A stretch of 43,414 bases of DNA, from positions 1 through 43,414 of the forward strand of contig CAMBAN010000009.1 of the NCBI GenBank assembly GCA_945864145.1, in the 5' to 3' direction. Shown piece after piece: positions 40,810 through 43,414 of this stretch (positions within the stretch are counted from its first letter, which is position 1; each line of letters opens with the position of its first letter). The notes beneath the pieces are model-generated. The model had not been told where the DNA came from and ran no database searches. It saw only the letters and a program-made list of their open reading frames with translations. The translations under genes and the position numbers were made by a program. This DNA is from an uncultured Lachnospiraceae bacterium. GTDB taxonomy: Bacteria; Bacillota; Clostridia; Lachnospirales; Lachnospiraceae.

Positions 40810-42711
40810 CTATGATTCGTACTCTATGACATCATCTGTATATTTTCTCTGCATATCATGCTGTTTTTTACGATTTTCAACTGTTTCAAAAATAATGGAA
40901 AAATCATAATCCTCCGGATACAGCTCCGTGGCTGCCACATGAAGCTTTACTCGTTTGTGATTAATCCAAATCTTTTTATTCGGTAATTGTACTCTTAATA
41001 CGCCTTTTTCATTGATTGCTTCACACACGATGCCTATTTTTTTCTCCGGATAGACCATGACACTATCCCCAATTTTGTACTTGGTACTAAGATTGGTGTT
41101 CTTATTTGGCATTTTTGCTTTCGCAATTCTTGCTGTACTTGTTTTGCTGATACTGCTTTCCGGCTTTTGAAACTGGTAAGCTTCTACTGCTTTCTCACCA
41201 TAAGAGGCTCGAATCGCCACTCTTAGCATTTCATTTGGCATACCAAGTCTGTCTGCAATATAAAAAGCACAGCTTTCCCCGGCTTCTCCTATCACCATTT
41301 GATAGGTAGGTCTTAGGGTTTCTTTGTCAAAAGCCATTCTCGCATTGATGATATCCGGCGTTTTGTCTGCATATTCTTTTACCTCAGGATAATGCGTTGT
41401 CACTAAGAAAATAGCTTTACTTTTCCTAAGCTCCTCTAAGATAGCAATCGCAATTCCCATGCCTTCCGTCGGGTCTGTTCCTGAACCTAATTCGTCCATA
41501 ATCACAAAACTGTCCTTATTTGCTTCCCTTAAAACTTCCAGCACATTTGTTATATGGGCAGAAAAGGTTGACAGGTTCTCAGACAGATTCTGTCCATCTC
41601 CAATATCACATAAATAGGAGCTGTTCATACAGATGTCTGCATTTTTACAGGTAACATGCAAGCCACATTGTGCCATCATGCTATTTAGCATAACGGTTTT
41701 GATTGCCACCGTTTTCCCACCGGTATTTGGACCGGTTATCACAATACCTTGTGCTTTTTCCCCTATCTCAAACTGCAAGGGAACTGCTGCCTTTTTATCC
41801 ATCAATGGATGTCGTGCCTCGGTTAATTTTATTCTGCGCTGTGTATTTATGATTGGCTCTGTTGCATCCATATCCATACTTAATTTCCCTTTGGAAAATA
41901 TGAAATCTAATTTTTCAATCATTTTTAAGTTTTCCTGTAACACCGGAGCTGATGCCGATACGATTGCCGACAGGGTATATAAAATACGATATACTTCATT
42001 TTCCTCACTTATTTTGAGTAACTGCAGTTCTTCATAGATTTTTGCAACACTTGTCGGCTCTATAAAAAATGTGCTGCCTGTCGAAGATTTATCAATGACG
42101 CTGCCGGATATTTTGAGCTTGCAGTCCTTTTTCACAGGAAGACAGATACGTCCATTTCTAGATGTACAATAATTATCCGCCATGCAGTCTTTATTGGAAC
42201 GCAGGATTTGCTCCGCCTTCTGCTTCATTTCTTCTTCGCATTTTATGATTTGATTTCGTATCTTTCCTAATTCCTTTGATGCATAATCGTCCACCTCATC
42301 ATTTCTGATTTTACTGCTGATTTCTTCCCGTAGTTCCGAAATGGCGTCCAGGTTTTCCTCATAATAGGCTAAGGAATTTCCATATACTTTTCCTCTTCCC
42401 AAATAGTCCTTCAAACGTTTTATTGCGACCAGCACTCTTTCTACTCGTTCTAACTGATAGGGCGTCAGGCAATCTCCCTTTTCTGCAATCGTCAAAATTT
42501 CTTTCATTTCAGAGATATTCTGTAAGGGTGGTGTACCCAGCTTTTCCATCAGATTTTTCGCATCTGTGGTGTCTCTTAGCTGTTTTCTTAATTCTGTTTC
42601 AGAAAAACAGATGGTAGTCTCTCTTACTTTCTTTTTTGCCCAATCTGTAATGGCTAAATCAGCCCATAATTCTTTTACCTTATCGAATTCAATTTGTCTG
42701 TCAATATTCAT
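40810..42711 (-). CDS. MutS2-like ATPase lacking the Smr domain
   Basis: A 633-residue MutS-family protein. It has the core/lever region with VKELWADLAITDWAKKKVRE at the start and a clamp-like coiled stretch (about 130-200), RICLPVKKDCKLKISGSVID and STFFIEP typical of MutS2, Walker A GPNTGGKT near 316 and Walker B SFVIMDELGSGTD near 402. After the ATPase comes a KOW/SH3-like segment (KIGDSVMVYPEKKIGIVCEA, about 549-568). Ordinary MutS2 is about 780 residues and ends in an Smr nuclease domain, which is absent here; the protein ends at DDVIEYES. MutS1-type mismatch-recognition domains are also absent. AAAGGAC precedes the ATG. MutS2 in B. subtilis has been linked to collided ribosomes; the same is possible here. 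Long structured leader upstream. Confidence 0.85.
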   Translation of the reverse strand: MNIDRQIEFDKVKELWADLAITDWAKKKVRETTICFSETELRKQLRDTTDAKNLMEKLGTPPLQNISEMKEILTIAEKGDCLTPYQLERVERVLVAIKRLKDYLGRGKVYGNSLAYYEENLDAISELREEISSKIRNDEVDDYASKELGKIRNQIIKCEEEMKQKAEQILRSNKDCMADNYCTSRNGRICLPVKKDCKLKISGSVIDKSSTGSTFFIEPTSVAKIYEELQLLKISEENEVYRILYTLSAIVSASAPVLQENLKMIEKLDFIFSKGKLSMDMDATEPIINTQRRIKLTEARHPLMDKKAAVPLQFEIGEKAQGIVITGPNTGGKTVAIKTVMLNSMMAQCGLHVTCKNADICMNSSYLCDIGDGQNLSENLSTFSAHITNVLEVLREANKDSFVIMDELGSGTDPTEGMGIAIAILEELRKSKAIFLVTTHYPEVKEYADKTPDIINARMAFDKETLRPTYQMVIGEAGESCAFYIADRLGMPNEMLRVAIRASYGEKAVEAYQFQKPESSISKTSTARIAKAKMPNKNTNLSTKYKIGDSVMVYPEKKIGIVCEAINEKGVLRVQLPNKKIWINHKRVKLHVAATELYPEDYDFSIIFETVENRKKQHDMQRKYTDDVIEYES

Positions 42712-42762
42712 TTTCTTTGTCCTTTCTTATCAAATTGTTTTCGCCTATAGGTAGCAAAATAT

Positions 42763-42805
42763 AAAAAGACCATAGCTACCCTAAGTGCATTAAGATACTA
42801 TGGTC
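42763..42805 (-). terminator. second attenuator-type terminator (T2) before the MutS2-like gene
   Basis: On the minus strand GACCATAG (42805-42798) and CTATGGTC (42775-42768) enclose a 22-base loop, followed by TTTTTATATTTT. The loop's GGTAGC can instead pair with GCTACC further downstream (near 42750-42755), an alternative that would break the terminator. It lies about 50 bases before the start codon. Confidence 0.75.
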
Positions 42806-42830
42806 CTTGATTGAAAACATAGAATGTGCC

Positions 42831-42942
42831 TTGGCACATTCTCGCGCCGAGTGCGGTCGTTTACGACTCTCTTCCTCTTTGCGCAAGTGCGCATCCTGCC
42901 GGAGGCTTTTATGTATAGGAAACGAAGTTTCCTAATACATAA
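42831..42942 (-). repeat. cluster of palindromes in the MutS2-like gene's leader
   Basis: Within the leader, several perfect short hairpins stand in a row on the minus strand: GTATTAGGAAAC with GTTTCCTATAC (42936-42911), TGCGCA twice (42894-42881), GTCGT with ACGAC (42868-42857) and GAATGTGCC with GGCACATTC (42841-42822). The block is more GC-rich than its surroundings. Confidence 0.55.
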
Positions 42943-42969
42943 AAAGAGCATGACCATACAGTCATGCTC
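42936..42969 (-). terminator. first attenuator-type terminator (T1) in the leader
   Basis: On the minus strand GAGCATGAC (42969-42961) and GTCATGCTC (42954-42946) form a perfect nine-pair stem with a six-base loop, followed by TTTTTATG. It stands about 120 bases after the leader peptide's stop codon and 225 bases before the MutS2-like start. Confidence 0.85.
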
Positions 42970-43089
42970 ATACCATCTATGGAAATAGATACCACAATAT
43001 TAAGCAATTGTAAGGCGAAAACGCTGACAACCTCTGCTGTCAACAAATGGGCAGACTCCTAGTGTAAACTAAAAATCACCCTGCAATAT

Positions 43090-43128
43090 TTATTTTGCAA
43101 TTTTCTCCATTACAACAACACTTAACAT
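43090..43128 (-). CDS. 12-residue leader peptide upstream of the MutS2-like gene
   Basis: A short reading frame, MLSVVVMEKIAK, with AGGAGG (43141-43136) seven bases before the ATG. The Shine-Dalgarno is stronger than that of most genes here, and the promoter lies about 25 bases further upstream, so it is probably translated. Its position ahead of two terminators is that of a regulatory peptide. The SVVVME core recalls the Val-rich stretch of some macrolide-stalling leader peptides, but the match is too short to prove a drug response. It could also be an independent small gene ended by T1. Confidence 0.6.
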   Translation of the reverse strand: MLSVVVMEKIAK

Positions 43129-43157
43129 GCAAAATCCTCCTAAAAGTCGTTTTCCTT

Positions 43158-43186
43158 TTTATACACCTGTTAAAAATGTTTGTCAA
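43158..43186 (-). promoter_or_regulatory. consensus promoter of the leader and MutS2-like gene
   Basis: On the minus strand a perfect TTGACA (43186-43181), 17 bases, TATAAA (43163-43158). Start predicted near 43151, so the leader before the MutS2-like ATG is about 440 bases long. The promoter begins 14 bases after the stop of the DUF3048 gene. Confidence 0.85.
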
Positions 43187-43199
43187 GTCATAATTTTCA

Positions 43200-43414
43200 T
43201 TATCCAACTGTAATTGTATTCCAGGCATCAGATGGAATAATTCCGATATATGTCTTTCCAGGATTTAACTTAATCTCTTGTCCTGTATAATCATAGTACT
43301 TTGTAATAGCTGTTTCCCCATTTTTATACCAAATAATTGGAATAAACTGCCCATCAGTAATATAGTATCCTGTAGAAGTCTGACTTGGCATATAACCAAT
43401 TACATTGTAAATTA
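43200..43414 (-). CDS. DUF3048-family (YerB-like) protein, 3' end only
   Basis: The frame is open to the right edge of the window, so only the last 71 residues are seen. They match the C-terminal domain of DUF3048 proteins such as B. subtilis YerB: TSTGYYITDGQFIPIIWYKN, then TKYYDYTGQEIKLNPGKTYI, GIIPSD and a short end. The function of the family is unclear; members are usually lipoproteins. The upstream part, including any signal peptide, is outside the window. Stop TAA at 43200-43202. Confidence 0.75.
   Translation of the reverse strand, partial: IYNVIGYMPSQTSTGYYITDGQFIPIIWYKNGETAITKYYDYTGQEIKLNPGKTYIGIIPSDAWNTITVG

Follow-up and report, generated by a model that had tools for sequence, protein, structure and literature searches.

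A predicted ribosome-mediated attenuator ahead of an Smr-less MutS2 paralogue in Lachnospiraceae

Why would a gene that reads as a DNA-repair MutS2 lie behind a short open reading frame (ORF) and two transcription terminators? The question is raised by a 43,414-nt stretch of DNA from an uncultured Lachnospiraceae bacterium (contig CAMBAN010000009.1; the window, to which coordinates refer), in which the promoter, leader, terminators and gene are all on the minus strand. We predict that the upstream region attenuates transcription through ribosome stalling, with an anti-antiterminator, and that it drives an Smr-less MutS2 paralogue likely to act on stalled ribosomes, a reading to which we assign a probability of roughly 0.75. 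It is based on conservation, covariation, modelling and gene company, from which we infer the inducer, the readthrough and the activity of the protein.

The region contains a translatable short ORF with a Shine-Dalgarno sequence ahead of an intrinsic terminator (Table 1). Direct reading confirms the consensus promoter, the AGGAGG seven bases before ATG and the 12-codon frame described in an initial annotation of this DNA. The first terminator (T1) reported there is confirmed, with a stem of ten pairs instead of nine, and the second (T2) is present as described, with an 8-pair stem and a long loop. At -158.5 kcal/mol the leader region folds far better than 100 shuffled sequences, whose mean is -108.45 (z -8.81), and promoter-like sequences precede the leader in relatives too, as judged by eye.

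We compared the best 80 of 216 stretches confirmed by a protein search. The leader lies upstream of the gene in 72 of these 80 related loci, with 51 found first by alignment and 21 added by a covariance model (the weakest, L085, at E 4.5e-4; six of the 21 show the leader only in part, the locus being cut). Among the other eight, three run into a contig edge (L010, L032, and L080) and four have ABC genes in the upstream stretch; in two of the latter (L037 and L050) the leader is just beyond the intervening ABC-exporter operon (matching coordinates), and for the other two (L033 and L035) it turns up in a different part of the genome, apparently across a contig break. The eighth, L016, is considered below. 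In a 45-row alignment (A1: the window and 44 of the 51 first-found loci, with seven omitted), the leader start and stop are intact in every row and the GAG of the Shine-Dalgarno sequence is near-invariant. Forty-three leaders have 12 codons and two are shortened by in-frame deletions. A conserved gene beside an unconserved leader frame, named in the initial annotation as evidence that would count against its proposal, is not the pattern seen across the loci.

Strong nucleotide conservation, with frequent amino acid changes at codons 7, 9, and 10, could also be expected of a region kept for RNA structure alone (protein-binding or riboswitch-like), the ORF being incidental. We find this scarcely probable: start and stop are kept in all 45 rows, indels are in frame only, and all three stop codons (TAA, TAG, and TGA) are used in A1. 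The upstream ORFs (uORFs) of distant loci vary in length and sequence yet remain short ORFs with a Shine-Dalgarno sequence, and the leader contains no Rfam family at threshold (the best below it is sbrA, at 27.6 versus 45 bits). The free exchange of amino acids at codons 7, 9, and 10 suggests that being translated counts for more there than the exact peptide.

The ORF RNA is predicted to pair with a strand just before the terminator, as in an anti-antiterminator. RNAalifold pairs the leader codons (strand 1) with a conserved core that includes strand 2, and this pairing (P1) covaries. Cognate P1 duplexes are stronger than swapped ones both in 48 near leaders (z -5.25, 0 of 2000 permutations) and in 34 distant leaders (z -5.26, 0 of 5000 permutations). 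In the near test, the leader piece is off by a few bases in L013, L041, L044, L045, L054, and L088. The distant test used 34 of 38 distant leaders. Its ORF starts were assigned by script, which in several cases picked the wrong frame or a position too far upstream (e.g., L136, L150, L151, L156, L163, L165, L166, L168, and L169).

We propose that by default strand 1 would fold onto strand 2 just ahead of T1. With strand 2 taken, T1 would form and most transcripts would end there, with T2 as a second gate. A ribosome stalled on the first ~8 leader codons would cover strand 1, and the freed strand 2 would pair with the 5′ base of T1, allowing transcription to continue into the gene. The inducing signal would most likely be an antibiotic that targets the ribosome, or some comparable obstacle early in elongation.

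In a model of the stage before the T1 3′ arm emerges, although not at equilibrium (see below), ribosome stalling gives the expected switch at T1. We folded the RNA to the stage at which the T1 5′ arm is out and the 3′ arm is not yet, with a ribosome footprint placed per codon. Across 48 loci, the pairs of the leader with the core and strand 2 average 20 when no ribosome is present. Strand 2 holds the base of the T1 5′ arm with a mean probability of 0.12 without a ribosome, 0.60-0.76 when the ribosome stalls at codons 1-8, and 0.17 when it is at the stop codon (0.02, 0.97-0.99, and 0.03, respectively, in the window). Antiterminators of at least 4 pairs are formed in 6 of the 48 loci without a stall and in 40 with a stall at codon 4. 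The distant leaders follow the same direction (0.28 to 0.59 upon a codon 4 stall in the 32 scorable of 38), with an increase of at least 0.3 in 18 of the 32 and an equally large decrease in two; here, six of the 38 gave no T1, the choice of T1 looks wrong in at least two (L127 and L142), and the start of L145 is misplaced. In the model, pairing of strand 2 with the T2 5′ arm also rises upon a stall, from 0.29 to 0.61 on average in 24 loci, the window included. The presence of the leader, its intact frame, the P1 covariation and the modelled switch at T1 support the leader-peptide attenuation that the initial annotation had proposed.

Alternatively, the promoter, peptide, and T1 could form a separate constitutive small RNA or peptide unit, with the gene under its own promoter. 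T1 is strong and stable in equilibrium folding, and leader RNAs ending at T1 are expected. We nevertheless regard such a unit as very unlikely. A separate constitutive promoter before the gene, which the initial annotation had also named as a counterargument, was not detected by a consensus scan, the sole method used; it reports no minus-strand promoter-like site in 42600-43414 and also misses the TTGACA/TATAAA site, because it demands T at the last -10 position. In addition, the leader and gene occur together in 72 of the 80 related loci, the leader also heads other genes, and both the P1 and antiterminator pairings covary.

The leader might instead sense a shortage of Leu, Val, or Ile through its codons, as biosynthetic attenuators do, and of the 34 distinct ungapped leaders, all have Val6 and 33 have Leu2. 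We give this a slim chance and reject it because codon runs are absent, no single amino acid having a run of its codons. The downstream genes, where classified, are not biosynthetic, and the Leu2 and Val6 codons are part of the paired strand, where pairing could itself explain their retention. Ala11 (33 of 34 distinct leaders) was considered as a drug-specific arrest motif and rejected, as it lies in the hairpin around the stop codon and is Thr in several distant leaders.

By its sequence, the gene product is a MutS2 paralogue that retains the core and ATPase, along with a KOW-like segment recognised by profile comparison, and has lost the coiled coil and the Smr domain. This upholds the initial annotation of an Smr-less MutS2-like gene. 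The protein scores 541 bits against TIGR01069 (curated cut-off 400) but matches the profile no further than position 509 of 790, so we consider Smr absent. Pfam finds MutS_V alone in the 633 amino acids. Sequence comparison with solved structures gives MutS2 chains as the nearest, its predicted fold agrees with that of MutS2 from Bacillus subtilis, Thermotoga maritima, and Thermus thermophilus, and an alignment shows intact ATPase motifs with both the coiled coil and Smr missing. The C-terminus was assessed by profile comparison in place of AlphaFold models, which in two runs were poorly confident there. Residues 543-595 have no Pfam match; compared with the KOW region of 12 long MutS2 proteins they reach 94.5% in hhalign, versus 0.3% for each of two control regions. 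The same genome encodes a full-length MutS2 elsewhere (966 bits, 802-amino acid frame).

The genes that accompany the leader (ABC exporters, GNAT acetyltransferases, and a methyltransferase) are usual neighbours of resistance genes, which fits attenuation. ABC exporter genes are found between the leader and the MutS2-like gene in 9 of the 80 loci (L033 shows the last gene alone). In L059, the exporter ATPase has DrrA as its best match (197 bits, under that model's cut-off), and of the permeases one is best matched by ABC2_membrane_6 and the other has no family above cut-off. The covariance model, searched against whole genomes, has matches in 50 of 299 family genomes (E <=0.01) and in 24 of 392 order genomes (E <=0.001), some by chance in both. 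The 30 best loci of the family search were not sorted by the gene that follows: 27 have the MutS2-like gene downstream; one is cut by the contig but shows the gene start; and two lead into GNAT acetyltransferases (L133, 1501-2283, and L143, 1501-2559), with the same leader and terminators. In genome G131, one leader precedes the GNAT gene (L143) and another precedes the MutS2-like gene (L168).

Weaker matches were sorted by the gene that follows, and their gene company is therefore not independent evidence. In these, the leader precedes ABC exporters (L145-L150, L163, and L165), a GNAT and then the MutS2-like gene (L164), or a methyltransferase and then the MutS2-like gene (L153). Genomes G163 and G619 have the leader with an exporter, but the short MutS2 was not found in either. 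Weaker matches without the named gene types in the flank were set aside as chance (L154, L155, L157-L162, L170, L171, L173, L174, L176-L178, and L182). We also observed a leader, T1, and T2 in L210, ~650 bases ahead of a partial gene of no Pfam class at a contig end.

MutS2 proteins have long been studied as DNA proteins. This, with the MutS fold and the intact ATPase, counts toward an alternative that keeps the same control but makes DNA the target of the protein, in anti-recombination or repair, with the leader reading translation as a general stress signal. We consider DNA as the target unlikely, given the exporter, acetyltransferase, and methyltransferase neighbours and the retention of the KOW-like segment with the Smr domain gone. 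The best-studied homologue, B. subtilis MutS2, splits stalled ribosomes through its ATPase, and deletion of mutS2 leads to sensitivity to chloramphenicol, tetracycline, and erythromycin, according to the portion of that report drawn on here (PMC10897456). By analogy, the protein in the window most likely acts on stalled ribosomes, probably splitting them. The same source describes Smr as helping to bring MutS2 to collisions (PMC10897456). Its loss would remove one collision-recruiting contact, so the protein may act more broadly on drug-stalled ribosomes, although this is speculation.

Several observations weigh against an attenuator that controls a ribosome-splitting protein. The domain described as helping to recruit MutS2 to collisions (PMC10897456, in part) is the one missing here. 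Covariation of the antiterminator, tested as strand 2 with the T1 5′ flank, is weaker than that of P1 (z -3.25, 5 of 2000; z -2.06, 41 of 2000 for a shorter piece). The swap tests leave relatedness in, and viewed locus by locus 29-41% of swapped partners on average pair better than the cognate, which ranks best in only 6 of the 34 distant leaders. Equilibrium folding to the end of T1 with blocked codons gave no switch; T1 stayed formed whichever codon was masked (means 0.90-0.94; 0.98 in the window), which leaves only a kinetic switch. T2 in the window hardly responds in the model (0.00 to 0.13), where a repeat intervenes, and control of this T2 by the switch is unsupported. Leader residues 7, 9, and 10 vary widely, and for that reason no drug-specific arrest motif is evident. 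Finally, L016 (1-3000) has a MutS2-like gene 82% identical to that of the window but no leader in the locus and no model match genome-wide at E 0.001, perhaps a natural loss of the leader.

A similar arrangement is found beyond close relatives. A short MutS2 at >=700 bits is found in 60 of the 299 family genomes, 22 of these without a covariance-model match. We examined the upstream regions of 20 of the 22. A model search limited to these regions places the leader in 3 of 20 (E <=0.001), and 13 of the 20, including those three, carry a short ORF starting like the leader (identified by script or partly by eye). An ABC permease is directly upstream in two and a methyltransferase in one. No leader-like short ORF was seen in the upstream regions of L189 and L192, and for L201 and L202 the pattern matched only at a distance of 660-700 bases.

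From 299 genomes sampled across the phylum, we read upstream of 18 other short MutS2 genes (435-764 bits; G830, short by frame length, is left out). Fifteen of the 18 loci have a Shine-Dalgarno sequence and a uORF of 7-11 codons (types MSESVIN, MLGVVLN, and MLIVSEKEILN), picked by eye among short ORFs for its resemblance to the leader, and 12 end in Asn. Terminator-like hairpins occur in 14 of the 18, with 19 in total versus 0.0 in shuffles (five single-base shuffles per locus). Plasmid-collection records covering at least 80% of the protein number four (L223-L226, 0.1-2.7 Mb), all encoding an Smr-less MutS2. Two Paenibacillus records and one Cytobacillus record have uORFs MSVNVLN, MTTGVLN, and MLGVVLN (partly by eye) and two terminators each, which a scan detected in Paenibacillus and inspection by eye in Cytobacillus, and the Acetoanaerobium record has MSVIVLL (by eye). 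A close relative carried on a plasmid was rejected, as the plasmid-collection homologues are all <60% identical.

Table 1. Features of the attenuator locus in the window.
Feature	Position	Strand	Basis
Promoter, TTGACA-17-TATAAA	43158..43186 (TTGACA 43186-43181, TATAAA 43163-43158)	-	direct reading
Leader Shine-Dalgarno, AGGAGG	43136..43141	-	seven bases before ATG 43128
Leader ORF, 12 codons, MLSVVVMEKIAK + stop	43090..43128 (stop 43092-43090)	-	start and stop kept in 45/45
Strand 1, leader codons predicted to pair with strand 2 (P1, anti-antiterminator)	43101..43128	-	RNAalifold, cognate-versus-swapped duplex tests
Small hairpin GCAA..TTGC around leader stop codon	43083..43098	-	RNAalifold
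Conserved core + strand 2 (GTTTTCGCCTTACAATTGCTTAATATTGTGG); predicted partners: leader in P1, T1 5′ flank in antiterminator	42992..43022	-	alignment, RNAalifold, duplex tests, modelling
Predicted antiterminator 3′ strand, overlapping base of T1 5′ arm	42966..42980	-	duplex tests, modelling
T1, intrinsic terminator, 10 pairs	42946..42969	-	terminator scan, alignment
Dispersed repeat between T1 and T2	42816..42945	-	own-genome search
T2, second terminator, GACCATAGTATC...GGTAGCTATGGTC-T5, 8-pair stem, long loop	42768..42805	-	direct reading, strict pattern
Post-T2 box AGGCGAAAAC, complementary to core	42737..42746	-	complement count across T2 loci
Smr-less MutS2-like ATPase, 633 aa	40810..42711	-	profile searches, alignment, predicted fold
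KOW-like segment of the protein, residues 543-595	40927..41085	-	hhalign

The hairpin around the leader stop codon has a CAAC/GTTG counterpart in distant leaders (by eye). A strict pattern detects a T2-type hairpin in 38 of the 81 upstream regions, counting that of the window, and has no match in the other 43; the terminator scanner does not list T2, as it is restricted to loops of 3-8. Directly after T2, 19 of the 38 T2 loci have at least 7 nt complementary to the core, versus 0.78 expected. This post-T2 box would be able to act only after readthrough. The GGTAGC/GCTACC pairing, which the initial annotation had described as competing with T2, exists in the window, but pairings of this type (at least 6 bases between the T2 3′ arm and sequence past T2) occur in only 4 of the 38 T2 loci, versus 2.7 expected. 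The pairing is not conserved, and a regulatory role for it is not supported.

The sequence between T1 and T2 is a ~130-base repeat with internal palindromes, which the initial annotation had overlooked. It has nine further copies in the genome, six of 65-135 bases at 79-92% identity and three shorter, on contigs C49, C96, C29, C17, C81, C63, and C28. The repeat looks like a later insertion, because the T1-T2 spacing is ~50 bases in relatives such as L014 and 140 in the window.

Elsewhere in the window, there is a flavin mononucleotide (FMN) riboswitch (109.4 bits, 6700-6582, minus strand) upstream of a membrane protein gene (6456-5698), which by its sequence we take to be of the riboflavin-transporter type.

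The proposed control resembles known systems, which we compare here as far as the cited portions of the reports describe them. The vmlR leader of B. subtilis has a short uORF, an anti-antiterminator over the uORF, an antiterminator and an intrinsic terminator, and a ribosome stall leads to readthrough, as in the switch that we propose (PMC9226507). It differs in its ABCF target, its Met-Ile-Asn uORF, and its one leader terminator, where the locus here has two terminators and a longer leader. A pairing formed only upon vmlR readthrough is proposed to free the Shine-Dalgarno sequence of the gene, helping translation (PMC9226507); the post-T2 box, seen here as sequence complementarity, is comparable.

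In Listeria monocytogenes, an attenuator with a small ORF (rli80) likewise precedes a resistance-linked copy of a ribosome-splitting factor, hflXr (PMC6310831). It is described as antibiotic-induced and as giving tolerance, and the second HflX copy of that organism as not involved in resistance (PMC6310831). HflXr therefore sets a precedent, by analogy, for a ribosome-splitter copy under an antibiotic-sensing leader, although HflX is not a MutS2 ATPase and its leader has an RLR motif, absent here. The bmrB-bmrCD system of B. subtilis has ribosome-mediated attenuation ahead of an ABC exporter and is induced by antibiotics aimed at protein synthesis (PMC4191407). Unlike the locus here, its terminator is inside the leader coding region. 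The bmrB leader is also longer, and the exporter belongs to another ABC family.

B. subtilis MutS2 (RqcU) shares the core, the ATPase and, as a profile match, the KOW-like segment, with about a third of the aligned-core residues identical (PMC10897456 for the B. subtilis protein, in part). The protein here is without the coiled coil and Smr, and has a different conserved tail and a leader of inducible type. Neither an attenuator for MutS2 nor an inducible Smr-less MutS2 was found by title and abstract among the papers listed in a literature search, which leaves most subscription journals uncovered and is not proof. The control logic is thus known from vmlR and hflXr; the MutS2 target, the two-terminator design, and the phylum-wide spread look new.

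More broadly, we see evenly balanced chances that Smr-less MutS2 proteins form, alongside ABCF proteins and HflXr, an overlooked class of ribosome splitters that are inducible and give antibiotic tolerance, and that one ancient Bacillota-wide leader module joins them with partner exporters, acetyltransferases, and methyltransferases in one response of gut Lachnospiraceae to stalling. The loss of Smr in a paralogue group that kept a ribosome-sensing leader raises the question of whether Smr is dispensable for ribosome splitting. The findings point to a response that is widespread in Lachnospiraceae, chromosomally encoded and inducible by a block of translation. Catalogues of resistance genes would probably overlook it, since its gene looks like a MutS2 for DNA repair.

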